Position numbers and translations under genes: made by a program. DNA of 64,000 nucleotides from Lachnospiraceae bacterium 28-4 (GTDB lineage Bacteria > Bacillota > Clostridia > Lachnospirales > Lachnospiraceae). The notes below the pieces were generated by a model that saw only the letters and a list, made by a program, of their open reading frames with translations, did not search any database and was not told where the DNA came from. The stretch covers positions 310,001-374,000 of the forward strand of contig KE159599.1 in NCBI GenBank assembly GCA_000403275.2, in the 5' to 3' direction. Positions 21,668 through 36,892 of this stretch are shown here, piece after piece (position 1 is the first letter of the stretch; the number at the start of each line of letters is the position of its first letter).

Positions 21668-24088
21668 TTATTCGGACATATAAATTGCCGTTTTTTGAAT
21701 AACCTCTTCCGCTCCGCCCGAAGCGCTCATTTCCCCGGCCAGGACTTTTTCCCCTGTTTCACAAACCGCATTTTCCAGCAGGGAATTCTTTACATATGGT
21801 GTTTTCCCTGCCTCCACTATTTTCATCATCTGTTCTATCTCCGCTTCGGAAGCCGGATAAATATCGATATAATAATACAATTCCTTTTCCTCTCCCTTGC
21901 TTCCGCCCATTGATGCATAGCTGCTGCCATCCCCCGTCGCATTTTGATGGAATTTTTCCACCCATTTTTCCTTATTGACTGGCATACCCAGCCATCCGTC
22001 ATCATCCAGCATTTTTTCCAGCAGTTCCAGAGCCGTCTCCTGATAAGGGGAAGCTGCATTGATCCCCAGCAGGTTTCTCGGCATAAATACTTCTTTTGCC
22101 TGTCCGTTATAAGCCGCAAAACTATAGTCTTCCTTCCCTGGAAACTTAAAGCAGGAAATCAATACATCGAAATTGTAGGAATCGCTTATCATACCGGCTG
22201 CAAACTCCTTTTCCTCCGTGATCAACCCTGTCTCCGATAGTTGGATCTGATATTCTCTTTTCGCTTCTTCCGATACGCCAGCCATCTGCCTCTCTTTCTC
22301 CCATATTTCATACTCCCTCTTTTGTTCCTCGCTCATTCTGGCTTCTTCCACATCCCACATTCTTTTTGCCGACTCATAAAATTCCGTCAGCAATTCCTTA
22401 TCTATTTTTCCATCCCCGTTCATCCATGCGGGCAGACAGACCGGAAGCAGCACATTTAACAGCTCGCTCTCGTTTTTCACCCCGAGAATAATTCCTTCTT
22501 CTTTCTTTGTATCATACTCTTCCACGATCCCGGCAATGGCTTCCAAATCGGTCATTCTTTCTATATCCGACTGTCTGCCCGCAGCAATACCCATATAAAA
22601 CTGCGACGGCACTGCATAAGTACCCTCCGCCGTATGGAAAGCATTGACTACATTGGTAAAATATCGATCTCCTGTCTTTGTCCCCAGCCAGGAAGTCAAA
22701 TCCATCAGTACTCCTTTTTCCACATAGGAATCCATCGGCATATCATCCAAAATCAAAATATCCGGTCCCTTTCCCGCGGCGATCTCCGTATTCAGCTTCT
22801 TTAGCGCATCATCTCTTGTTACAGGCGAATTCTCCTCCATTCCGATCTCATACCGGATATAAATTTCCGGATGCTCCGACTGAAAAGCGCTGATCACCTT
22901 TTTCATCTGCGGATTATCTTTCAAACTATATGCCTTTAACTGTATTTCCGGCGTGGACGGCATATTCGGATCATAGGTATATCTCATAAGTCTGCCATCC
23001 GAAAGCAGCAAGAGAAATACATCGTTTTCCAAAAGTATGCCATCCAATATCCCATACGACGGATCGCTGAAAGAAGTGATCGTTCCGTCCACCACCTGTT
23101 CTATCACATTCCCTTCCATCACATGCCGGTAAACCCCCTTTTCACAGGCGAGATACAAGATTCCGTTTTCTCCGGGTATAAGCAGAAGAGGTACGACGCC
23201 CTCCACATCACTGCTGATATGGGCTCCCAGCTGTTCATGCAAAAAATCGTTCATCACCTGATCCGTTATCGTTTCCCCCGTCGCCAGATCAAGAATGGTT
23301 ATGCCGTCACTATTCAAAAACATGAGCCTGTTATCTTTTTCTACCATATACTGCGCCCATTCGGACAACTCTGCAAATTCCTTTATCGTTCCGTTTTCTT
23401 TGTCCACCTCGTATACTTTGCCGTCATAGGCGCTTCCGAAAAGTCTTCCGTCTTCAGAAAAAGCAAAGCAGTTCACATATTCGGAATCCTTGAAGGAAAA
23501 TTCCAGTTTTTGAAAAGTTCCGTCCGCAGAAGCGATCCCATATTTGGGCAAAAAACTGCCGCCGATTTCTTCCTCTTCATCGCCGTTTTCCGCATCGTTC
23601 CCTCCTCCGGAATATATAATGGCAATATCGCCATTCTTCGCAACCGCCGTATCCATGACCCAGCATTTGGCTGCCATCAACTCCTCATGCCATGCCATTT
23701 TTTCCCGTTCCCATGTCGCTCCGTCATCTTTGGATACCCATTTTCCATTGTTTCCCGACATAATTACGAGACTTCCGTCTTCCATTTGTGCGATATCTCC
23801 CCCGCTTCCCACTTCTCCTTTCAAAGTCTCATCCACGCTTTCCAGATAACGTCCCATTACTTTTTCCTTCTCTCCCGCTCCGTCCAAACTATCTGCGGAA
23901 TTCTCTTCTCCATAAGCATCATTTCCAACTGACGCCTCTTCGGTCGGCCCTCTTCCGCCTTCCGAACCGCTGCCGCTGCCGCCCTTCCCTTCCGTCGTTC
24001 CGCAGCCAGTTATCCCAACTGCTCCAATGGCCATGGCGGCCACAAGCAGCCACGCAAATATTCCCTTCATCCCTCTTTTCTTTTTCAT
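21668..24088 (-). CDS. very large solute-binding lipoprotein with Asp-box N-terminal region (paralogue)
   Basis: 806 residues from ATG 24088 (MKKKRGMKGIFAWLLV, AAAGGG 8 bp before); an ATG 13 codons upstream lacks a site. Lipobox ITGC. Like its paralogue it has an Asp-box (WVSKDDGATWERE) within a propeller-like region to about residue 380, then a complete sugar-binding fold (FQSEHPEIYIRYEIG, GPDILILDDMPMDSYVEKGVLMDLTSWL). Large stretches are identical to the second copy, so they arose by duplication. First gene of the operon; its promoter carries the two-component operator at 24166-24200. Confidence 0.88.
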   Translation of the reverse strand: MKKKRGMKGIFAWLLVAAMAIGAVGITGCGTTEGKGGSGSGSEGGRGPTEEASVGNDAYGEENSADSLDGAGEKEKVMGRYLESVDETLKGEVGSGGDIAQMEDGSLVIMSGNNGKWVSKDDGATWEREKMAWHEELMAAKCWVMDTAVAKNGDIAIIYSGGGNDAENGDEEEEIGGSFLPKYGIASADGTFQKLEFSFKDSEYVNCFAFSEDGRLFGSAYDGKVYEVDKENGTIKEFAELSEWAQYMVEKDNRLMFLNSDGITILDLATGETITDQVMNDFLHEQLGAHISSDVEGVVPLLLIPGENGILYLACEKGVYRHVMEGNVIEQVVDGTITSFSDPSYGILDGILLENDVFLLLLSDGRLMRYTYDPNMPSTPEIQLKAYSLKDNPQMKKVISAFQSEHPEIYIRYEIGMEENSPVTRDDALKKLNTEIAAGKGPDILILDDMPMDSYVEKGVLMDLTSWLGTKTGDRYFTNVVNAFHTAEGTYAVPSQFYMGIAAGRQSDIERMTDLEAIAGIVEEYDTKKEEGIILGVKNESELLNVLLPVCLPAWMNGDGKIDKELLTEFYESAKRMWDVEEARMSEEQKREYEIWEKERQMAGVSEEAKREYQIQLSETGLITEEKEFAAGMISDSYNFDVLISCFKFPGKEDYSFAAYNGQAKEVFMPRNLLGINAASPYQETALELLEKMLDDDGWLGMPVNKEKWVEKFHQNATGDGSSYASMGGSKGEEKELYYYIDIYPASEAEIEQMMKIVEAGKTPYVKNSLLENAVCETGEKVLAGEMSASGGAEEVIQKTAIYMSE

Positions 24089-24165
24089 AGTGATACCCTT
24101 TCCAAACATATTTTTTATCCTTCCCAAAACAGATACAGTGTTTGCAGTCCCCTTTTCTTTCTGCC

Positions 24166-24200
24166 ATCTTACCAGGCCAATCTCTAAAAAATCTCTAAAA
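24166..24200 (-). promoter_or_regulatory. promoter with two 11-bp direct repeats, shared with the two-component system
   Basis: On the minus strand TTTTAGAGATT occurs twice without gap (24200-24190 and 24189-24179), followed by 7 bp and the -10 box TAAGAT (24171-24166). There is no normal -35; the repeats replace it, as in OmpR/PhoB-type activated promoters. The same repeats and spacing occur at 28145-28179. Confidence 0.8.
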
Positions 24201-24211
24201 CTAAAAAAAGA

Positions 24212-24243
24212 AAGCCGGAAACCTGTTTTCCGGTTTCCGGCTT
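24212..24243 (-). terminator. terminator of the Fn3-like secreted protein gene
   Basis: AAGCCGGAAACC (24212-24223) pairs perfectly with GGTTTCCGGCTT (24232-24243); on the minus strand TTTCTTTTTTT follows. Confidence 0.88.
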
Positions 24244-24328
24244 GTCCACGATCTATATTTTTTCTATTTACCCTCTGTTATTTTTTGATACCGCTCTCCC
24301 CTTCTTTTATGAACCAATCTTTATTCAT

Positions 24329-25756
24329 TTATTCCGCATCTTTATAAATCAGCGCATAAGCATAAAATTTATCAGTACTGAAGGTTATGGTATCGGGATC
24401 CTTATCTTTATCATCAAAGATAAATGGGATACCGTCTTGCGAAACGCAAATCATTTTAAATTCCCGGTTTTGTTTCCGTAAGGTTTCCGGTACAACCAGC
24501 GATATTGTAACCTTCTCTTCCGTTGCATATTTTTCCTTGCTGCCAAGAGGATAAATATTATATGTTCTTGCTATAGTATAATTCCCAGCTGCATTTTCAA
24601 ATACCTCAAAACATTGTTTCCCCTGCATCGCATTTTGGATATTCACATCAAACAGTTGATCATTTTTTGTTGTATATTCTACTTTTTCTTTACCATAGCA
24701 CAAATAACGGGTTTTTTCCTCCTCCGTAGTTGGCGTCCAGGCAACCTCTACAGGTTCTTCACTGGCAGAATAGGTATTCGGAACATAGTTGCCAGAATCA
24801 TCAGAAGCATTATTTTCATTACCGAAATTACCGGAGCCGGTATAATAATACTCTTCCGTTACTGCATAATCGCTATGCGTATATAAATTTATATTGTCAC
24901 TATAAACTTTAATACGAACTTTATAGGTTTTTCCGGGTTCCATGACACTTGAAAAATCCTCTTCAGGAATGTCATAGTTCGTTCCACTAACCATTGTCCA
25001 TGATTGAAAATCATCATTGCTTATATTTACTAAATATCCGGATGAATGATCAACAAAATTCCATCTGACTGTTCCCGGATTATCCAAATCCCATTTTATC
25101 TCCGGTGATTCTATTTTTTGTTCGGGTTTCACATAATGAAATACATCACTATAATCGGACAAAACTCCCTTGCTCTCATCAAACATATCGCTATTATCTG
25201 ATAATACATGTATTCTAAACATATAATCACCGGATTCCTCAATAGAATAGGAAATATCCGTATTACAGATCACATTATAAAAACCTTCTGCATCATGTGC
25301 AAATTCACGCTTCCCATCTTTGTATATATACGCGCAAACTTTAGTATCTGGCGAATTGTTCTTATTGAAAGAAAAACTCCCTGGTTTATCCGGGTTCCAT
25401 TTTAAATCCGTAGGCTTGTTTGGTTTTGTGTCAGATACCATATCCGCATTAACCGTTGATGATTCCGCACTTATTGGCTCCTCTTGTAATTGGGAATCAT
25501 TTTCCGACTCTGTTTCCGTTATATTCTTGATCTCCGAATCGACTTCCGTTTGTGATAACGTTTCATCATCAGTATCCGCATCTTTTTGCATTTCTTGCGG
25601 ATTACTGTTTAAATTCTCCTCCTTTTCTTCGTCGGCATCAAACGCCTCGGAAGTATTTGTTTGCTCCGGTTTTAATTCAGACGCATTCGCTTGGATACTT
25701 AAATAATTTGAAATCAAAAATCCCGCAATCAATACAGCCAATAATTGTTTCCTCAT
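24329..25756 (-). CDS. secreted protein with fibronectin-like repeats, unknown function
   Basis: 475 residues. A signal peptide ends near QANASELK; a Ser/Glu/Asp-rich stretch follows (residues 30-125). Then two related units begin with KPTDLKWNPDKPGSFSFN and SPEIKWDLDNPGTVRWNF and contain YLVNISNDD and YKVRIKVYSDN, the strand pattern of fibronectin type III-like domains in Clostridial surface proteins. The last 130 residues repeat a distinct beta domain. No sorting motif or anchor is visible, so it is probably released. It is the leftward gene of an A+T-rich island and is ended by its own terminator. Confidence 0.75.
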   Translation of the reverse strand: MRKQLLAVLIAGFLISNYLSIQANASELKPEQTNTSEAFDADEEKEENLNSNPQEMQKDADTDDETLSQTEVDSEIKNITETESENDSQLQEEPISAESSTVNADMVSDTKPNKPTDLKWNPDKPGSFSFNKNNSPDTKVCAYIYKDGKREFAHDAEGFYNVICNTDISYSIEESGDYMFRIHVLSDNSDMFDESKGVLSDYSDVFHYVKPEQKIESPEIKWDLDNPGTVRWNFVDHSSGYLVNISNDDFQSWTMVSGTNYDIPEEDFSSVMEPGKTYKVRIKVYSDNINLYTHSDYAVTEEYYYTGSGNFGNENNASDDSGNYVPNTYSASEEPVEVAWTPTTEEEKTRYLCYGKEKVEYTTKNDQLFDVNIQNAMQGKQCFEVFENAAGNYTIARTYNIYPLGSKEKYATEEKVTISLVVPETLRKQNREFKMICVSQDGIPFIFDDKDKDPDTITFSTDKFYAYALIYKDAE

Positions 25757-25806
25757 TTGTCATTTCTCCTCTCCTATCCCTTTAATATAAAAAATTTTAA
25801 CACATT

Positions 25807-26097
25807 TTATAAGTAATTAAAACACTGTATTTTGTTGTTTTTACACAAGTATAAAAAATTCTTGGCTATGAACTTTATTTTCGTAGCAAGGTTCGGTAGT
25901 TGGGCTTTTGACCCCAGCATCATGTCATATAATTTAGAAATTTTCAATAAAACTTCTAAATTAGGAATAGTCGTTCCATTTTCCCATTTTGACACTGCCT
26001 ACCTTGATATTCCTAATTCTTTTGCTAAATCATCTTGTGTATAGTTGTTGCTTTTACGCAAAAACTGTAAGTATTTCGATATAATATTCATATTCAT
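25807..26097 (-). pseudogene. XRE-family regulator broken by one in-frame stop codon
   Basis: ATG 26097 opens MNMNIISKYLQFLRKSNNYTQDDLAKELGISR, then TAG at 25998-25996 (codon 34), then AVSKWENGTTIPNLEVLLKISKLYDMMLG in the same frame. The normal text at this point is ISRQAVSKWE, so a CAG (Gln) became TAG in the recognition helix. No frameshift exists. A readthrough product would be a standard helix-turn-helix with about 35 extra residues. An 11-bp inverted repeat lies in its promoter. Suppression or a sequencing error are alternatives. Confidence 0.88.
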
Positions 26098-26110
26098 AAA
26101 AATCACCCTT

Positions 26111-26142
26111 CTTATTGCCATTATAAGGTATATGGCAATAAG
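26111..26142. promoter_or_regulatory. 11-bp inverted-repeat operator of the XRE gene
   Basis: CTTATTGCCAT (26111-26121) and ATGGCAATAAG (26132-26142) form a perfect dyad around a TATAAT on the minus strand, 14 bp from the XRE start. A likely autoregulatory site for the now interrupted repressor. Confidence 0.7.
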
Positions 26143-26201
26143 AATAAAGAACTTGACAAGTGCTAAAAAGCAAATAATTATACAAAATATTGATTTTTTT
26201 A

Positions 26202-26230
26202 TTGACAATTACCAAATATTGAAGTACGCT
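26202..26230 (+). promoter_or_regulatory. promoter of the small-protein operon
   Basis: TTGACA (26202-26207), 17-bp spacer, TACGCT (26225-26230). It points right toward the genes at 26299-28016 and is divergent to the XRE gene. Confidence 0.65.
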
Positions 26231-26298
26231 TGAAAAATACACAAAGTAGTCATTATTATTGCTAATAAGCAATCAAAAAGGGGAAGGAGGGGATTCCA

Positions 26299-26361
26299 AT
26301 GCAGGGACAAATGGAATCACTGGCACATGAATTGATATACCGTTTTTCATACAGGACATGA
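26299..26361 (+). CDS. possible 20-residue leader peptide
   Basis: ATG 26299 is preceded by GGGGAAGGAGGGG, one of the strongest ribosome sites in the window, and opens a 20-codon frame (MQGQMESLAHEL...) to TGA 26359. It is the first frame of the small-protein operon, 18 bp before the next gene. It could be a real small peptide, a leader controlling translation downstream, or a remnant of a lost gene. No similarity recognised. Confidence 0.4.
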   Translation: MQGQMESLAHELIYRFSYRT

Positions 26362-26379
26362 GATAGGAGGAATTCATTC

Positions 26380-26661
26380 ATGATCATAAAAACCTGGATT
26401 ATTCTGGCAGTTATTTCAGCTTTCATACAGATTGTCTTAGCAGTAAAGAAAATGCCTCATTGGGTAGGCATGCTTTTGCCGGCCGCTTTTTTGGCCTTTG
26501 CCATTTATGCATGGGCGGATCTGTTTTGGGTCGGCATCCCGGTCGGCAAATTGCTTGCCTTTATGATTCCCCCCATTTTCCTTGCTTGCCTGTTTGAAAT
26601 GGTTTATTGGAGAACACGATGGAAAGAGAGGCAGAAGGAATATGAAAAATATAAAAAATAA
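26380..26661 (+). CDS. small membrane protein, unknown
   Basis: 93 residues, ATG 26380 behind AGGAGGAATTC. Three hydrophobic segments (WIILAVISAFIQIVLAV, HWVGMLLPAAFLAFAIYAWADLF, LLAFMIPPIFLACLFEMVYW) and a basic/acidic tail (RTRWKERQKEYEKYKK) predict an integral membrane protein with its tail in the cytoplasm. The hydrophobic layout resembles the protein at 26996-27280 (LPAAFLAFAIY against VPALYLVFAIPY), so they may be paralogues. It overlaps the next gene by 20 bp. Function unknown. Confidence 0.75.
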   Translation: MIIKTWIILAVISAFIQIVLAVKKMPHWVGMLLPAAFLAFAIYAWADLFWVGIPVGKLLAFMIPPIFLACLFEMVYWRTRWKERQKEYEKYKK

Positions 26662-26983
26662 AAGAGTTTATGTCTTGCTCTTAGCGGCCGTTATTTGTAT
26701 CCTGACCATAGGAACAACCTGTTTGGCCGCCGAAACAAATGTAACGCCCCGAAGCTACCGGGAGGATCTTCTTGTATCTTATAAGGAGTACTGGTATACG
26801 GATGGTGCGGGAGTAGAAAGCCATGTAAGATATGGGGAACAATACAGATCATTTACATTTTTAAACGGATACCGGCCATTGAGACAAACCATAACGCAAC
26901 TTCCATTAGATGCAGACGATTTGCCTCACGCTGTCACCATACATCGACATCAGCAGGTTCAGATTCAATACGAATTCTATTAA
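26642..26983 (+). CDS. small secreted protein, unknown
   Basis: 113 residues when started at ATG 26642, just behind AGAAGGAAT and inside the end of the previous gene; a frame start 20 codons upstream lacks a signal peptide. The N terminus KNKRVYVLLLAAVICILTIGTTCLAAET is a clear signal peptide with an Ala-x-Ala-like cut site near residue 30. The mature part of about 84 residues is Tyr/His-rich (YKEYWYTDG, VTIHRHQQVQIQYEFY). Translation is coupled to the membrane protein upstream. No family recognised. Confidence 0.72.
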   Translation: MKNIKNKRVYVLLLAAVICILTIGTTCLAAETNVTPRSYREDLLVSYKEYWYTDGAGVESHVRYGEQYRSFTFLNGYRPLRQTITQLPLDADDLPHAVTIHRHQQVQIQYEFY

Positions 26984-26995
26984 CAGGGAGAAACC

Positions 26996-27280
26996 ATGAT
27001 TTATAATGAATTAAAATTATTATTGATAATAACTATTATACTAACCATTATCCAAATATGGCTTTCCAAGAAAGAATGCTGGTGGAAAGGATTATTTGTC
27101 CCTGCTTTATACTTGGTTTTTGCCATTCCATATGTATGCACCAAGCTTTTACCCACTAGCAGCATTCGCCTGAGACCTGACTACTATCATACAGCCACCT
27201 ATATTTTCCCTGGTATCTGGTTTTTCATGATCTATTTTACCTTTTATTACTACAAACAATATAAGAAAGAAATAAAATAA
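26996..27280 (+). CDS. small membrane protein, unknown
   Basis: 94 residues, ATG 26996 behind CAGGGAG. Three hydrophobic stretches (LKLLLIITIILTIIQIWLS, WWKGLFVPALYLVFAIPYVC, YIFPGIWFFMIYFTFYYY) and a Lys-rich end. Layout parallels the 93-residue protein two genes upstream. It abuts the next gene (stop TAA then ATG). Function unknown; could be an immunity-like or anchoring partner of the secreted proteins, which is only a guess from context. Confidence 0.7.
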   Translation: MIYNELKLLLIITIILTIIQIWLSKKECWWKGLFVPALYLVFAIPYVCTKLLPTSSIRLRPDYYHTATYIFPGIWFFMIYFTFYYYKQYKKEIK

Positions 27281-27517
27281 ATGATGTTAAAAAAAAATTG
27301 TAGAAAAAATATTATTATTATAAGCTTTTTATGTGGAGTGATAGTTCGTTGCCTATTAGTCATTTTGAAAGGACGCTTCCCATTCTTCTCTCTCTCAACA
27401 GGATTTCCAGAGTATATGCTAAGACGCATACCATACGGAATTTCAAGCTGTATACTATATGGGATTTTAGGATCTTTGGTTGGCACAGCATTCTATTTTA
27501 TAAGGAGGAAAATATAA
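27281..27517 (+). CDS. small membrane protein, unknown
   Basis: 78 residues. It begins directly at the stop of the previous gene with no spacer, so translation is coupled; no independent ribosome site is seen. Two hydrophobic segments (IIIISFLCGVIVRCLLVIL and CILYGILGSLVGTAFYFI) separated by a short loop (KGRFPFFSLSTGFPEYMLRRIPYG) and basic ends. No family recognised. Part of the island operon. Confidence 0.65.
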   Translation: MMLKKNCRKNIIIISFLCGVIVRCLLVILKGRFPFFSLSTGFPEYMLRRIPYGISSCILYGILGSLVGTAFYFIRRKI

Positions 27518-27518
27518 T

Positions 27519-28016
27519 ATGCGTAAGTTTAAAAAAAGTTATTCTCTATTAATTGTTCCAATTATAGCTATATTATTTACAATTCCTACATATGCATCTG
27601 AACAGACACTGACATTTACTGTCGCTCCAGCAGAAGATTTACCCTCTGCAGATGCACAAGCAATTCAGATGACCGCAGACATTCCAATGCCTACTATCAA
27701 CAGTGATGGAACATTTACTTTTGAAACATCCGGCGGAGTCGGAGAAACCTTGGTTTCCTCCACTTTCAAATTCTCTGGTACAACATCCAAAATCACTCTT
27801 GGCGCTTATAGCACAAAAGCAAAATCTTACACTGTTTATTTAGAAAAAAAGAGTGGATTAATCTGGACAACCGTTAAAACAGTTACATATTATACCGGCG
27901 GGGACTATGAATATACCTTTACCAATTTAGATACATCAGCAACATATCGATTACGTTTTTTCAGTCCCGATGGCAAAGTCATAGGCACAGGTTCCATTAG
28001 TAATTACGCAGGTTAA
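27519..28016 (+). CDS. secreted beta-rich protein, unknown
   Basis: 165 residues, ATG 27519 one base after the previous stop, behind AAGGAGG. Signal peptide to PTYASEQ (about residue 28). The mature protein alternates strands with many Thr/Ser (TFETSGGVGETLVSSTFKFSG, YTVYLEKKSGLIWTTVKTVTYYTGG, YEYTFTNLDTSATYRLRFFSPDGKVIG), like a single jelly-roll or Ig-like domain. No anchor. Last gene of the operon and followed by a strong terminator. Confidence 0.75.
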   Translation: MRKFKKSYSLLIVPIIAILFTIPTYASEQTLTFTVAPAEDLPSADAQAIQMTADIPMPTINSDGTFTFETSGGVGETLVSSTFKFSGTTSKITLGAYSTKAKSYTVYLEKKSGLIWTTVKTVTYYTGGDYEYTFTNLDTSATYRLRFFSPDGKVIGTGSISNYAG

Positions 28017-28031
28017 TAAACAAAATACAAT

Positions 28032-28074
28032 AATAAGGCTGGGAACCTGTTTTTCAATTCCCGGCCTTATTAAT
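28032..28074 (+). terminator. terminator of the small-protein operon
   Basis: 14-bp stem with one G-U pair (28032-28045 with 28058-28071), 12-base loop, then AATTTT. Confidence 0.88.
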
Positions 28075-28144
28075 TTTCCCCTATCTGTTTCGCTCTGCCT
28101 TTAGTTGCTTCATTTCTTAAAAGTATATCCCCCACTCCTCCAAC

Positions 28145-28179
28145 TTTTAGAGATTTTTTAGAGATTTACTTGCTACAAT
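28145..28179 (+). promoter_or_regulatory. promoter with two 11-bp direct repeats before the two-component genes
   Basis: TTTTAGAGATT twice without gap (28145-28155 and 28156-28166), then 7 bp, then TACAAT (28174-28179). The arrangement is identical to 24166-24200 on the other strand. It suggests the response regulator activates its own genes and the lipoprotein operon. Confidence 0.8.
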
Positions 28180-28237
28180 AAAACCCGTATAATAAACAGG
28201 AAGCTGCTACATGCTATTTCCGAAAGGAGAAATTTTT

Positions 28238-28927
28238 ATGCGCGTGCTGTTAGTGGAAGACGATCCAAAACTAAACCATTCCCTAAAATACCAGTTGGAA
28301 AAAGAAAATTTTATTGTGGATTCCTGCTCCGATGGAGAGGAAGCGCTTTTTTATATTGACCAGAATATCCATGACGTTATTTTGCTGGACCGGATGCTCC
28401 CGCTTCTGGAGGGAACCGAAATCCTCACCTCAATGCGCCGGAAAAACAACAGCACTCCCGTCATTCTGATCACTGCCCTGGGAACTTTAAATGACAAAAT
28501 CACAGGTCTTGACCTAGGGGCCGACGATTATCTCGTCAAACCCTTTGATTTCGAAGAACTGCTGGCCCGCATCCGATGCGTCACGCGGCGCTCTCCCATG
28601 ATCCAGGGCGATGACATCCTCTCCCTTGGCGACCTGACGCTGCATATCGGAGAAAGCCGCCTGACCGGTCCCGCTGCCTCCTGTTCCCTGTCGAAAAAAG
28701 AAAATGAACTTTTTCAATCTTTTTTTCGCAATTCCGGTCAAATTCTCACCAGGGAACAATTACTCGCCCGGGTCTGGGGGTTGGATGCGGAAATTGAAGA
28801 CGGCAACCTGGACAACTATATCCATTTTCTCCGCCGCCGTCTAAACACCGTTGGAAGCACCGTAACCCTGCGTACCGTCAGAGGCGTCGGATACCGCATG
28901 CTTGTATCCCCATCAACCGCCAAATGA
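28238..28927 (+). CDS. OmpR-family response regulator
   Basis: 229 residues from ATG 28238 (AAAGGAG before it; an ATG nine codons upstream has no site). The receiver domain has acidic pocket Glu7-Asp8-Asp9 and phosphoacceptor Asp51 in VILLDRMLPL, with Thr and Lys of LITAL and LVKPF. The C-terminal winged helix ends in NLDNYIHFLRRRLN and VRGVGYRM. Directly followed by the kinase. The duplicated 11-bp repeats in its own promoter and in the transport operon promoter are the predicted binding site. Confidence 0.96.
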   Translation: MRVLLVEDDPKLNHSLKYQLEKENFIVDSCSDGEEALFYIDQNIHDVILLDRMLPLLEGTEILTSMRRKNNSTPVILITALGTLNDKITGLDLGADDYLVKPFDFEELLARIRCVTRRSPMIQGDDILSLGDLTLHIGESRLTGPAASCSLSKKENELFQSFFRNSGQILTREQLLARVWGLDAEIEDGNLDNYIHFLRRRLNTVGSTVTLRTVRGVGYRMLVSPSTAK

Positions 28928-33095: not shown

Positions 33096-34751
33096 TTATA
33101 CATTGAAACAGCTTCCTCCTACAAACTCTCTGCAAATGGAATTTTTCGGAAGGTTGTCGCTGCTGACGCCGATAAAATATTCCAAAAACTTTAAAAGCCT
33201 TTTCGCTTCATAATATTCCGGCTCCCCTTTCCCTATCCCAAACAGCAGGGGTTCCGCATATTGTTTCAGCACCGCCAGCTCATAGATCAGTACAGAATTG
33301 AACATGGCGTCCGCGCTCTCCTGGAACGGGAAAATATATTCTTCTTCCCCTTTTCTCACGGAAGCCCACATTTCGATCGTCCGTTTTGCCGACGTCCCAC
33401 GCGTCCGCGCGTCCCTTACCATACGGCGCAGAAGCCTCCCGTCGGTAGTCGGAATCCGGTTATGGTCATCGATATTAATGCTCGTAAGGGCGCTGATATA
33501 GATTTTATATTTGCTTTCATTGGGAAGCGCATAGGACATGGCATCATTCAATCCATGGATGCCCTCGATTACGAGAACGTCTTCCGGCCCCAATGTCTTA
33601 TAATCGCCCTTGTACTCCCTCTTGCCGGTTTTAAAATTAAAGCTGGGAAGTTCCACGGTTTTTCCCGACAGCAGGTCGAGCATATCTTTGTTAAATTGTT
33701 TTACGTCGATCGCTTCCAGGCATTCAAAGTTATAGTCCCCGTTTTCGTCCCTGGGCGTATCCTCCCTGTTTACAAAATAATTGTCCAGCGCGATCGGATG
33801 GGGCGACAGCCCATAAGTGCGCAGCTGTATCGACAGTCTGTGGGAAAATGTAGTTTTTCCCGAAGAAGAGGGGCCTGCGATCATAACAAATTTTACCCCT
33901 TTCCGTTCCACAATCTCCCGTGCGATCTCACCGATCCGCCTCTCCTGAAGCGCCTCCTGCACGAGAATCAGATCATTGATATTCCCCTTGCAGATCTGAT
34001 CATTCAGATCCCCCACCGTCCCTACATTGACCATATTTCCCCAATCGTCGGACTGTTTGAGCGTTTGAAACAATTTTTTCCTCGGTTCCATCGAAGGCAG
34101 TTTTTCCGGCGATTTAGGATCCGGAAGCAAAAGCATCAAACCATCCTCATAAGCAAATACCTGGAAATATTTCACATATCCCGTACTCGGCAGCATATAG
34201 CCGTAATAATAATCATAATATCCGTCCAGACAGTACACATTTACATAAGAACTTCTTCTATATCGGAACAGCTTTTCTTTCTCTTTCATATTCTGGCTGC
34301 GGAAGATCTCCACCGCGTCGTTCAAAGGATAAGATTTTTTCACATAAGGCAGGTCAGCCTCCACCAACTCCCGCATCCGCCCGTTTAATCTGTCAATAAA
34401 CTCCTGATCCAGCCTTACCTTTCCTTTTACGCTGCAATAATACCCGGAACCGATGGCAAACTCCACCTTTACCTTTTCCAAACTACCCTCTTCCGCCACA
34501 TCCTGCATCGCTCTGATCATCAGCATGATCGCCGTCCTTACATAAGATTTGTGTCCCACGGCATCGCTGATCGTAAAAAAGGAAACCTCACAGTCCTTTT
34601 TCACCTTTTTAAACAATTCCCGTATCTTCCCATTAACCGTAACCAGCGCGATCCTGTTATTATATTTCTCCTGATATTCCCTGACGATCGTTTCATACGT
34701 CGTACCCTCTTCGTACTGCCTTCTCTCACCGTCGATCGTTACCGTTACCAT
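33096..34751 (-). CDS. uridine kinase-like nucleoside kinase with TGS-like N-terminal region
   Basis: 551 residues from ATG 34751 (AGGAGG 6 bp before; an earlier in-frame start lacks it). The first 60 residues (MVTVTIDGERRQYEEGTTYETIVREY) look like a TGS/ubiquitin fold as at the start of threonyl-tRNA synthetase; a middle region is related to the tRNA-synthetase editing-like domain. The P-loop MIAGPSSSGKTTF is near residue 290, followed by LDNYFVNREDTPRDENGDYNFECLEAID, the uridine-kinase substrate motif. This fused type is common in Clostridia and called nucleoside kinase. Substrate not determined. Confidence 0.93.
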   Translation of the reverse strand: MVTVTIDGERRQYEEGTTYETIVREYQEKYNNRIALVTVNGKIRELFKKVKKDCEVSFFTISDAVGHKSYVRTAIMLMIRAMQDVAEEGSLEKVKVEFAIGSGYYCSVKGKVRLDQEFIDRLNGRMRELVEADLPYVKKSYPLNDAVEIFRSQNMKEKEKLFRYRRSSYVNVYCLDGYYDYYYGYMLPSTGYVKYFQVFAYEDGLMLLLPDPKSPEKLPSMEPRKKLFQTLKQSDDWGNMVNVGTVGDLNDQICKGNINDLILVQEALQERRIGEIAREIVERKGVKFVMIAGPSSSGKTTFSHRLSIQLRTYGLSPHPIALDNYFVNREDTPRDENGDYNFECLEAIDVKQFNKDMLDLLSGKTVELPSFNFKTGKREYKGDYKTLGPEDVLVIEGIHGLNDAMSYALPNESKYKIYISALTSINIDDHNRIPTTDGRLLRRMVRDARTRGTSAKRTIEMWASVRKGEEEYIFPFQESADAMFNSVLIYELAVLKQYAEPLLFGIGKGEPEYYEAKRLLKFLEYFIGVSSDNLPKNSICREFVGGSCFNV

Positions 34752-34809
34752 ACGCCGCCTCCTGTTCCGAATGCTTTCCACCTGCACGCTCCGGCAGACT
34801 TCAAACCTT

Positions 34810-35412
34810 CTATTCACTCATACCCTTTACAAATTCATTCTCAAATTCTGCTTCTGTATATGTAAAAACTCTTTGAAAATACAACTGTTCAAACCTTTCC
34901 AGGCCAAACCTGATAAAATGCCCCTTCCCTTTCCGGTGAAAATATTTGCCAATCTTCACCCTTGATGCGGACTCCTGTAATCCTCCCTCTTCCCTTTCTT
35001 CTTTTGCTTCATCATTTTTTGTTTCATTATAAACCAGTATAAACTCGGCATGATCCCTGCAAAAAGAAATGCTTTCCCCTGTAATATCACAAAAAATCAA
35101 TAAACTTTCATAGATTTTCTGGTAAACGTTATATTTTTGTTTGTCATTTATTTTTCCGTTTTTAAATTCAATAAAACTAACGCTTCCTTCTCTCCCTATA
35201 TAAAGCGCATCGCTGGAACAAGGCAGGAATTTCGGCTTGGGTTCCAGGCTTCTGACATATGCCTTCTTCACTCTGTCAAAATGAATCACCGAAACCTCCG
35301 CATCTGTCATATATTGCTTTACCGTATTTTCATCGTCCAGCGAAGTTTTCTTAAGCGTAGAAATATTATTGCGGAATATCTCTATTTCATCATACCGTAT
35401 TTCCATTCCCAT
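34810..35412 (-). CDS. PD-(D/E)XK-like protein paired with an ABC-type ATPase
   Basis: 200 residues from ATG 35412 (or ATG 35406). The frame starts inside the last codons of the ATPase gene, a 23-bp overlap, so the two proteins are translated together. Residues Asp68 (SSDALYIG), Glu82 and Lys84 (SFIEFKNGK) give the D-x13-ExK pattern of restriction-like nucleases in a strand-loop-strand, with a helix after it (QKYNVYQKIYESLLIFC). This is a motif reading, not a family match. The rest is Lys/Glu-rich with an Arg/Phe-rich C terminus. A nuclease effector controlled by the ATPase is the best guess; no similarity to DUF4435 or HNH partners was seen. Confidence 0.75.
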   Translation of the reverse strand: MGMEIRYDEIEIFRNNISTLKKTSLDDENTVKQYMTDAEVSVIHFDRVKKAYVRSLEPKPKFLPCSSDALYIGREGSVSFIEFKNGKINDKQKYNVYQKIYESLLIFCDITGESISFCRDHAEFILVYNETKNDEAKEEREEGGLQESASRVKIGKYFHRKGKGHFIRFGLERFEQLYFQRVFTYTEAEFENEFVKGMSE

Positions 35413-36667
35413 ACCCCATATTTTCCAAGTCCTGCAATGGCCTCGCCAATTTTGCGTAAATACGTTCTACCTCGTTTGTGACATCCTCCATTCCCACTCT
35501 GCCATCTTTTTCTTCTGCCAAATAATATCTGCACTTATCCCCGATTCCATACTTATTCGTATAAACTTCAATGGCATTCAAAAAATACGGGCTATGCGTA
35601 TTCAGCAAAACATGAACGCCGAATTCAATCTGCAGCAATACAATAATTTCCGCAAATTTCAACTGCCACTCAGGATGCAAATGAATCTCCGGCTCATCGA
35701 GAATCACAATTCCATTCTCATCAATGCTCCCATTCTGCAAAAGCTGTTTTAATATCACGAAATTTTTCATGCCTGTGGATAAATTGGTCATCTTCAGATT
35801 CCCCTGCAACCCTTCTGCCCGATAGGCATAATTGCCATAAGGCTCTATCACAATTTCTCCATCACAGACTCCCTGCATAACATTCAAAATATTCTGCATC
35901 TTCTTCTGAACCGTCAGTTCTTCCAATATATTCTCCAGCCCGCCCTTACCTCTCACCAATTTCCTCTGTAAATCGCTCCGATGATCCAATGTATTAAATA
36001 CACTGGAATTATTGTCATACAAATTATCAACTACAAACGGATCATCTATATAAATAATCTCCTTTATCAAGCTGATAAAATGCCGTATCTCTATTTCCCC
36101 ATCCGCCAACACCTGAAAATCAACGGCATCATCCCTTATTTTAATTGAAATATGGCTTTCTTCCTCTGGAAAATTCAAATGCCCTATCTTCTTCCCAAAT
36201 TCTGCCCCCAAGCTTTTTTTAAGAATAAGCTTAATCAGCTCCTCATCTTCCATATATAAGTATTCATTGATCTTTTTCGCTTTTACCTCTAAATCCTCCC
36301 CATGCCCTTTGTTCAAAGGGTGGGAAAACAATTCCTTGTGATAAGCCTCTAATTTTTCTACAATCTTATCTTCATTTCCCCTATATGCATCTGGTTCATC
36401 AAGCATTTCATAAGTTGCATCAAAAACCAAAGTTTTCAAAGAATGCCCTAATGGAACAATAGCCCCTTTTTTAAATACATTATAAATTGCATCCGCCCTT
36501 TCCTCCCTGATGTGTTTCTCCACCTTATAAAACGCCTTAAATACGCTGAAAAGCATCTTCCCCACAGTACTCTTTCCCGTACTATTCTCGCCCGCAATCA
36601 CCGTAACCCCATCCAATTCAATCCGCGCCCGTCCAATTTTCCCCACATTTTCCAGCTCAATCCTCAT
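35390..36667 (-). CDS. ABC/SMC-type AAA ATPase of a two-gene module
   Basis: 425 residues from ATG 36667 (GGAGG 5 bp before; upstream in-frame ATGs are too close to their own sites). Walker A GENSTGKST at 26-34, a long helical insertion (about residues 60-270), signature LSTGMKNFVILKQLL, Walker B GIVILDEPEIHLHPEWQ and H-loop NTHSPYF. It is close to the AAA_15/AAA_21 type found in OLD, RecF, PtuA and AriA, without a Toprim or HNH domain of its own. The second gene overlaps its end. Region is more A+T-rich than the flanking housekeeping genes, which fits acquisition. Confidence 0.88.
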   Translation of the reverse strand: MRIELENVGKIGRARIELDGVTVIAGENSTGKSTVGKMLFSVFKAFYKVEKHIREERADAIYNVFKKGAIVPLGHSLKTLVFDATYEMLDEPDAYRGNEDKIVEKLEAYHKELFSHPLNKGHGEDLEVKAKKINEYLYMEDEELIKLILKKSLGAEFGKKIGHLNFPEEESHISIKIRDDAVDFQVLADGEIEIRHFISLIKEIIYIDDPFVVDNLYDNNSSVFNTLDHRSDLQRKLVRGKGGLENILEELTVQKKMQNILNVMQGVCDGEIVIEPYGNYAYRAEGLQGNLKMTNLSTGMKNFVILKQLLQNGSIDENGIVILDEPEIHLHPEWQLKFAEIIVLLQIEFGVHVLLNTHSPYFLNAIEVYTNKYGIGDKCRYYLAEEKDGRVGMEDVTNEVERIYAKLARPLQDLENMGYGNGNTV

Positions 36668-36757
36668 CCAATCCTCCATAACCTCCTTATACCACAAAGA
36701 ATTTATGTCATAAGGAATTTATGCCATAATAACCACCTTCCAACACCTAAAACTATC

Positions 36758-36892
36758 CACGGGAAGAATGCCCCTCTGGGCATTCTTCCGTGTGAAGAGC
36801 GGTTCGCAACGCAAATTTGCGTTGCGAACCCTAGAAGTTCTTGGCGAAACAGCCACTGCTGTGAGCCTTAGAACTTCTCTTCACACTAATAA
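36758..36892. repeat. cloverleaf-like nested palindromic element
   Basis: Four paired units: a hairpin at 36758-36792 (GAATGCCC/GGGCATTC core); an outer stem GTGTGAAGAG (36790-36799) with CTCTTCACAC (36877-36886); inside it a perfect 30-nt palindrome (36801-36830) and a hairpin AGAAGTTCT/AGAACTTCT (36833-36841 with 36870-36878) that carries a further ACAGC/GCTGT stem. It fills the gap between the ATPase start and the Nif3-like stop codon. No open frame. Could be a folded RNA, a terminator or a REP-type mobile unit. Confidence 0.75.

Follow-up and report, generated by a model that had tools for sequence, protein, structure and literature searches.

Putative abortive-infection module of an OLD-type ABC ATPase and a PD-(D/E)XK-type nuclease in Lachnospiraceae bacterium 28-4

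What is the role of two overlapping genes that lie between housekeeping-like genes in Lachnospiraceae bacterium 28-4? The genes are located in a 64,000-nucleotide stretch of DNA (assembly GCA_000403275.2, contig KE159599.1, positions 310,001 to 374,000), hereafter called the window, and encode an ATP-binding cassette (ABC) ATPase of 425 amino acids from an ATG codon (435 from a TTG start) and a small protein of 200 amino acids, respectively. An initial annotation of the window had described the ATPase with its motifs, the 23-bp overlap and the 200-residue protein, all of which are present in the open reading frames (ORFs), and had proposed an undescribed defence pair. By analogy with characterized systems, the pair is probably (at a rough probability of 0.75) an abortive-infection module in which the ATPase would act as a sensor that controls a PD-(D/E)XK nuclease. 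The computational basis for this reading comprises the pairing of the genes, conserved catalytic residues, predicted folds, mobility, purifying selection and empty insertion sites.

The ATPase and nuclease genes form a unit. A scan with the ATPase profile gave at least 220 confirmed relatives, and the nuclease gene, whole or partial, is located directly downstream of the ATPase gene in 78 of the best 80 loci, which include near-copies (L126/L127 and L106/L109). The 78 paired loci include split or partly recovered nucleases (L074, L093, L119 and L133) and two nucleases of 146-147 amino acids (L073 and L077). Among 16 loci selected with the nuclease, one of which comes from a phage-labelled record, 15 carry the ATPase gene directly upstream, so the co-occurrence that the initial annotation had proposed as a check is borne out from both sides. 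Both genes were also found in 13 of 14 further loci fetched from scans of the order and the phylum; the fourteenth (L155) is a remnant with a truncated nuclease gene and no ATPase gene within the fetched stretch. The order and phylum matches in G712, G623:C220, G734, G788 and G986 stand outside these 14 loci. The locus sets overlap (L059/G009, L060/G005, L074/L157, L089/L152, L119/L158 and L135/L145) and their counts are not additive. A weak match with an internal stop (L033) had neither gene at its locus. In L150 the ATPase gene is split and the nuclease gene is intact, the reverse of the split nucleases. Pairwise distances of the two proteins are correlated (r = 0.689 for the 53 loci common to both alignments, with 0 of 2000 permutations as high), a value that is uncontrolled for common ancestry and that common descent alone could give. 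Translation of the two genes is likely coupled through their overlap, and the genes of related pairs appear at a glance, uncounted, to be separated by similarly short overlaps or gaps.

The 425-residue protein is, on its motifs, an ABC ATPase of the OLD-like group. It contains Walker A (G26-T34), the signature-like LSTGMK, Walker B with DEPE, and the H-loop within NTHSPYF (356-362). The alignment of relatives (A6) consists of the window sequence and 60 others, chosen by hand with near-copies, fragments and doubtful starts left out, and G26, K32, D324, E325 and H358 are present in all 61. The Pfam families AAA_21 (8.4e-17) and AAA_15 (6.6e-16) match above their cut-offs, and the unannotated family PHROG 14430 matches residues 1-416, nearly the full length (4.9e-42). 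Matches to PADLOC models span 138 families, led by HEC-02A (6.6e-25) and PD-T4-4_A (1.4e-24) and followed by NsnB, PDC-M47A, AriA (1.6e-18) and PtuA (5.9e-17); in sequence terms, this spread is typical of a relative that lies outside all those families. The AlphaFold model has a predicted local distance difference test score (pLDDT) of 91.8, and helices lie within residues 49-157. In a Foldseek search of the PDB with this model, the best match is PtuA of Septu (5.8e-10), followed by Rad50, SMC heads, retron effector ATPases and OLD.

The identification of the small protein as a PD-(D/E)XK-type nuclease is supported by its AlphaFold model and by 62 aligned sequences (A3, the window protein and 61 rows chosen as for A6). 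The residues D46, D68, E82 and K99 are invariant in these rows. Position 84 is occupied by Lys in 60 rows and by Arg in two, position 66 by Ser in 58 and by Thr in four, and position 103 by Ser in 60. Conservation of this kind in the aligned sequences is far beyond chance. The arrangement Asp68-x13-Glu82-x-Lys84 reported in the initial annotation is present in the window protein. In the model (mean pLDDT 91.2), a helix (45-55) is followed by two strands (69-72 and 78-84), a second helix (90-111) and a third strand (122-128); D68 starts one strand, the strand after it bears E82-x-K84, and K99 lies in the helix that comes next. The predicted order of secondary structure is that expected of a PD-(D/E)XK core. 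A nuclease-like fold had been named as a point to check: the motif and the predicted topology agree with it, and the structure search is suggestive, with no Foldseek match to the PDB at E ≤ 0.001. Of the best 50 matches, 44 are to proteins of the PD-(D/E)XK superfamily (cap-snatching endonucleases, HamA, EcoO109I, NucS, Card1, Avs3 and Exo5), with a small number of proteins recurring in many entries. Since these matches lie below significance, the nuclease assignment is carried by motif and topology, with the structure search as weak support.

Family searches with the small protein gave no Pfam family at E ≤ 10 and no PADLOC family at E ≤ 1, and matches at chance level in NCBIfam (E 0.0013 to a dioxygenase family, well short of the cut-off of that family) and in the PHROGs (E 0.011). 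A sequence search of the PDB with the A3 profile returned chance matches, and a structure search of BFVD gave none with E ≤ 0.001. Together, the 62 rows touch 22 PADLOC families at E ≤ 0.1. In a further relative, from the genus genome G007 (L021:9812-10390), the nuclease frame is open and has Ala in place of D68 and Gln in place of K84; the ATPase frame beside it is also open.

The distribution of the pair supports its being an inserted accessory cassette, not core genes. Matches to the small protein were found in four of 16 genomes of the genus and not in the other 12, and in 14 of 397 genomes of the family, one of which (G020) was not borne out. Profile searches gave carriers in 14 of 392 genomes of the order and nine of 398 of the phylum, some by partial matches; the window genome is counted in both the phylum and the family figures. 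Both flanks were seen in 15 genomes. A kinase gene and a Nif3-like gene enclose the pair in the window genome (G000) and in G009, and in the other 13 the same site is empty, with a gap of 23-227 bp between the two genes. Patchy carriage and empty sites agree with the view of the initial annotation that the pair is an inserted module and not a set of core single genes.

The pair has also been found on mobile elements. The 61 ATPases of the tree are labelled with ten phyla, including an archaeal bin, and show 12 label changes for a minimum of nine; the labels come in part from metagenome bins and may mislead. Six loci on viral contigs were found with the ATPase profile, and four of them carry the pair, the nuclease being split into two ORFs in L197. 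The pair is located near a helix-turn-helix repressor (CI/Cro-type) and a phage integrase in L194, between a repressor of this type with an ImmA-like peptidase and a serine recombinase in L195, next to a CI-type repressor in L197 and one ORF upstream of the terminase large subunit in L196. Lysogeny regions are a usual place for genes that protect the host of a prophage. In MT835532, a record labelled bacteriophage, the pair lies just downstream of a MobL relaxase gene with a TraG-type coupling protein further on, and the record therefore resembles a conjugative element. Plasmids of Klebsiella and Acinetobacter, the two opened of eight plasmid records with an ATPase match, each carry a more distant ATPase followed by a partner gene, and both partners match the nuclease profile. 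With the small protein alone, a viral scan gave seven pattern matches, none confirmed, and a plasmid search gave no match. These findings support horizontal acquisition of the pair and its carriage by phages and other mobile elements.

The age of the insertion and the selection acting on it were estimated by comparing G000 and G009, which share the insertion site. Synonymous divergence (dS) lies in the range 0.64-0.81 for each of the four genes. The pair has thus been at this site for about as long as its flanks, and an insertion later than the split of the two genomes was rejected. The ratio of nonsynonymous to synonymous divergence (dN/dS) is about 0.02 for the kinase, 0.03 for Nif3, 0.08 for the nuclease and 0.16 for the ATPase, values which place both genes of the pair under purifying selection. 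Amino acid identity between the two ATPases is 53-70% at residues 41-160 and 78% over the whole protein. From this comparison and the modelled helices, the helical insert at residues 41-160 is the fastest-changing part of the ATPase and a natural candidate for the sensor. Three compact relatives (L146, L147 and L148) have ATPases of 318-322 amino acids, apparently without much of this insert, and nucleases of 186-205 amino acids.

In the proposed mechanism, the ATPase would dimerise over ATP and carry the nuclease. It would sense a cue of infection, probably via the fast-changing insert, and would then license or release the nuclease. The nuclease would cut nucleic acid of the infected cell, either RNA such as tRNA or rRNA, or DNA, and phage production would be stopped by abortive infection. 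Several observations speak against this proposal. The immediate neighbours of the pair are mostly housekeeping-like, as judged by eye and from the Pfam matches listed, which makes the argument from defence islands weak and leaves more of the load to the argument from mobile elements. The ATPase gene is intact and followed by unrelated genes in L071 and L072, and it is intact beside a split or partial nuclease gene in L074/L157, L093, L133 and L119/L158; split or missing genes may be assembly errors in bins. Judged by its substituted residues, the nuclease of L021 is likely dead and is retained beside an open ATPase frame. The pair has been resident since before the split of G000 and G009 without visible loss, and the small protein has no significant structural match in the PDB.

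The pair might instead mediate a restriction-like defence, in which the ATPase loads the nuclease on foreign DNA (ends, stalled forks or unmodified DNA), phage DNA is degraded and the cell survives. The match of the ATPase model to Rad50 and SMC heads besides PtuA fits this alternative, as do the weak fold matches of the small protein, which include NucS, EcoO109I and HamAB. It is nevertheless unlikely: WonAB, the nearest characterized analogue (see below), is reported to leave DNA intact and to stop translation (PMC12137116), and no fixed modification gene accompanies the pair, since no neighbour recurs in more than six of the 80 loci. In a toxin-antitoxin or addiction module, the nuclease would be a toxin held by the ATPase and the pair would be kept mainly by post-segregational killing. 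The overlapping two-gene order, the mobile carriage, the solitary insertion between other genes and the ATPase-only copies in L071 and L072 are compatible with this, but a large ATPase with catalytic motifs in 61 of 61 rows exceeds the need of an antitoxin, the insert of the ATPase evolves fastest, as expected of a sensor, and simple sequestration has been ruled out for WonAB (PMC12137116). Such a module is improbable.

The combination of an ABC/Rad50-type ATPase with a nuclease also recalls host DNA repair or recombination pairs of the RecF/SbcCD type, and a cellular role of this kind is very improbable given the patchy distribution in genus, family, order and phylum and the carriage of the pair by phages and plasmids; a core repair gene was rejected on the distribution. 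A homing-like selfish cassette, whose nuclease would cut empty sites and so spread the pair, would agree with the clean two-gene insert, which is present at numerous unrelated sites without an integrase gene recurring beside it. Homing needs one target, however, and the insertion sites are mutually unrelated; the pair moreover already occupied the window site before G000 and G009 diverged, and an ATPase sensor would be superfluous, all of which leaves homing with a very small chance. The abortive-infection module accordingly remains the preferred reading.

The features of the locus are collected in Table 1. The pair is flanked by the kinase-like gene on one side and by the Nif3-like gene, followed by methyltransferase, RpoD and DnaG genes, on the other, as the initial annotation had placed it; the names of the flanking genes were assigned by eye from the translations. 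The higher A+T content noted there is also found, the G+C content of the pair being 0.388 against 0.465 for the window. Equally low values occur in 5.3% of windows of equal length, most of which fall in another A+T-rich stretch at 24-28 kb. This second stretch (window positions 23900-28700; G+C 0.35-0.38 from 24 to 28 kb) is more A+T-rich and contains a secreted-looking protein of 475 amino acids and several small membrane or secreted-looking ORFs, followed by a two-component system. The spacer between the Nif3-like gene and the ATPase gene (window positions 36690-36884) contains a hairpin-rich dispersed repeat, with 20 matches in the same genome (the site itself and an inverted piece included), 25 in G009, 49 in G015 and 36 in G013. 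The empty site of G013 holds, by eye, a related copy of the repeat.

Table 1. Features of the ATPase-nuclease locus (positions in the window)
Feature	Position	Strand	Evidence
ABC/OLD-type ATPase gene, putative sensor/regulator	35390..36667	-	ORF, Pfam, PHROG 14430, AlphaFold/Foldseek
PD-(D/E)XK-type nuclease gene, putative effector	34810..35412	-	ORF, AlphaFold pLDDT 91.2, residue conservation
23-bp gene overlap	35390..35412	-	ORF coordinates
Walker A, ATPase residues 26-34 (GENSTGKST)	36566..36592	-	Sequence; K32 in 61/61
ABC signature-like LSTGMK, residues 296-301	35765..35782	-	Sequence; G299, K301 in 61/61
Walker B and DEPE, residues 321-327	35687..35707	-	D324, E325, P326, E327 in 61/61
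H-loop His358	35594..35596	-	61/61; 33 residues past E325
Helical insert, ATPase residues 41-160, candidate trigger sensor	36188..36547	-	G000 vs G009 identity; model helices
Nuclease Asp46, helix 1	35275..35277	-	62/62
Nuclease Asp68 (S-x-D-A-L)	35209..35211	-	62/62; Ala in further relative L021
Nuclease Glu82-x-Lys84	35161..35169	-	E82 62/62, K84 60/62
Nuclease Lys99 (K-x3-S, helix after ExK strand)	35116..35118	-	62/62; aligns with conserved K of three HEC-02B proteins
Insert, Nif3-like gene to likely kinase start (ATG at 34751)	34752..36880	-	Empty in 13/15 genomes, filled in 2

No neighbour family recurs in more than six of the 80 loci, and clear PADLOC defence genes (E ≤ 1e-15) adjoin the pair in at least six. 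These include a SIR2 protein (L067), a fused PARIS (L076), HEC-02A (L105), AbiLi downstream with a type I specificity subunit upstream (L091) and an RdrB-like protein (L134); borderline cases occur in L096 and L100. The list of nearest neighbours holds 148 ORFs, of which 106 were scanned against PADLOC and Pfam, and the matches listed cover 25 of 94 PADLOC families and 25 of 145 Pfam families. The defence neighbours in L097 and L134 are among the other 42 and came from an extra scan of 10 proteins selected by eye, which partly overlapped with the 106. In L097:4070-9837 (Helicobacter anseris), the pair comes after a gene for a type IIG restriction enzyme-methyltransferase (1477 bits). In L080:7082-11945 (Leptotrichia), it lies between glyQ and glyS and splits this core gene pair.

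Association of nucleases with OLD-ABC ATPases, through TOPRIM or HNH partners, is described as a pervasive theme (PMC12839542). The closest description is that of WonAB, an OLD-type ABC ATPase with a PD-(D/E)XK nuclease on the WASA-1 prophage (Nat Microbiol 2025, PMC12137116). According to that account, both genes are required, ATPase and nuclease mutants are inactive, and the system acts by abortive infection with translation arrest and intact DNA; overproduction of the nuclease is toxic only when the ATPase is present. WonAB and the pair share a two-gene operon, prophage-borne, in which an OLD-type ABC ATPase gene precedes the gene of a small PD-(D/E)XK nuclease, identified by motif and model in the pair. 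The comparison uses the description and the printed residue numbers. The spacing of 33 residues between E300 and H333 of WonA equals that of E325 and H358 here, if E300 and H333 are the Walker B Glu and the H-loop His, and K71 is among the catalytic Lys residues tested in the WonAB nuclease, the ExK Lys of the small protein being K84. In contrast, K34 and E300 of WonA are 266 residues apart, whereas nearly all of the ATPases that scored at E 1e-30 or better in this analysis show a distance of 278-309, and WonAB is reported mainly from Gram-negatives (PMC12137116).

The relatives of WonAB named in the same source are PD-T4-4 and an in-silico 'OLD-ABC ATPase + novel REase' operon (PMC12137116). 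The model PD-T4-4_A matches the ATPase here at 1.4e-24. Of the PADLOC families that the nuclease rows match, 22 in all, none bears the PD-T4-4 label, the existence of a PADLOC model for the PD-T4-4 nuclease not being established. The 'novel REase' operon (Krishnan et al. 2020, via PMC12137116) has the same gene order and kind as the pair, with an Anaerovibrio example in print; compared by description, the two may even be one family. Anaerovibrio is a genus of the Selenomonadaceae, and two loci of that family, L121 and L135, carry the pair.

HEC-02 is a PADLOC candidate attributed to a preprint by Payne et al. (2024); HEC stands for Hma-embedded candidate, and some HECs, such as HEC-06, are reported to be active (PMC12988326, also PMC11411939). 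It likewise combines an ATPase with a small protein that has D, ExK and K, and in three HEC-02 loci (L142-L144) the ATPase is 340-357 amino acids long and the partner with these residues 167-185. In a profile comparison, for which the HEC-02 side consists of three sequences, the ATPases align at 99% probability over 213 columns; for the nucleases the probability is 55%, and their catalytic residues line up. At E ≤ 0.1, the HEC-02B model PDLC04229 matches 13 of the 62 nuclease rows, the best of them with 8.4e-7. The HEC-02A models are 337-338 long, against 425 amino acids here, and the window ATPase scores 6.6e-25, compared with 8e-128 (L142) and 3.7e-124 (L105) for true members; for HEC-02B, the window nuclease gives no match at E ≤ 1, compared with 3.9e-67 for the genuine L142 protein. 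HEC-02 was therefore rejected as a name, and the score gap suggests a remote sibling of the same plan. In L105:3038-6290 (a Butyrivibrio bin), the pair and the true HEC-02A gene lie side by side, an arrangement which indicates that the two are distinct.

PARIS also uses an ABC ATPase to control a nuclease, which is described as held on the ATPase ring until triggered (PMC11455837, PMC12409349), and its AriA model matches the ATPase here. AriB is a TOPRIM nuclease (PMC11455837). No DUF4435, TOPRIM or AriB match was found in the 62 nuclease rows at E ≤ 0.1 with Pfam and PADLOC models, and PARIS was rejected as a name. Septu provides the best structural match of the ATPase in PtuA. Its PtuB is an HNH nuclease, whereas the 62 rows have no HNH family match at E ≤ 0.1 and conserve D, ExK and K, and Septu was rejected likewise. 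The remark in the initial annotation that the partner is of neither type is thus supported.

By analogy, then, the pair belongs to a known general kind, that of an OLD-type ABC ATPase with a PD-(D/E)XK nuclease. The initial annotation had called it undescribed, a term that no longer applies since WonAB, PD-T4-4 and the 'novel REase' operon have established the kind, as reported in PMC12137116. Judged by sequence matches, the pair is a so far unlabelled member of this kind with no clear entry in PADLOC-DB 2.0. Model scans, as distinct from the PADLOC pipeline, gave no PADLOC-DB 2.0 model that fits the nuclease, and surveys based on that library may therefore miss the pair, possibly in roughly 2-4% of the sampled species genomes of the phylum (9/398) and family (14/397), those that match. 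Only tentatively can it be proposed that the pair stands for a branch of its own, as yet unnamed, within ATPase-nuclease defence; this branch, frequent among gut Bacillota and spread over ten phyla including an archaeal bin, would travel as a lone cassette between core genes and near lysogeny genes, and its trigger, sensed by the insert, and its nuclease substrate would be unlike those of WonAB, PARIS, Septu and HEC-02. The alignment of catalytic residues, the candidate sensor insert and the natural empty sites make the function directly testable. Alongside WonAB and its relatives, the pair extends the newly recognised class of ATPase sensors with nuclease effectors to gut anaerobes.

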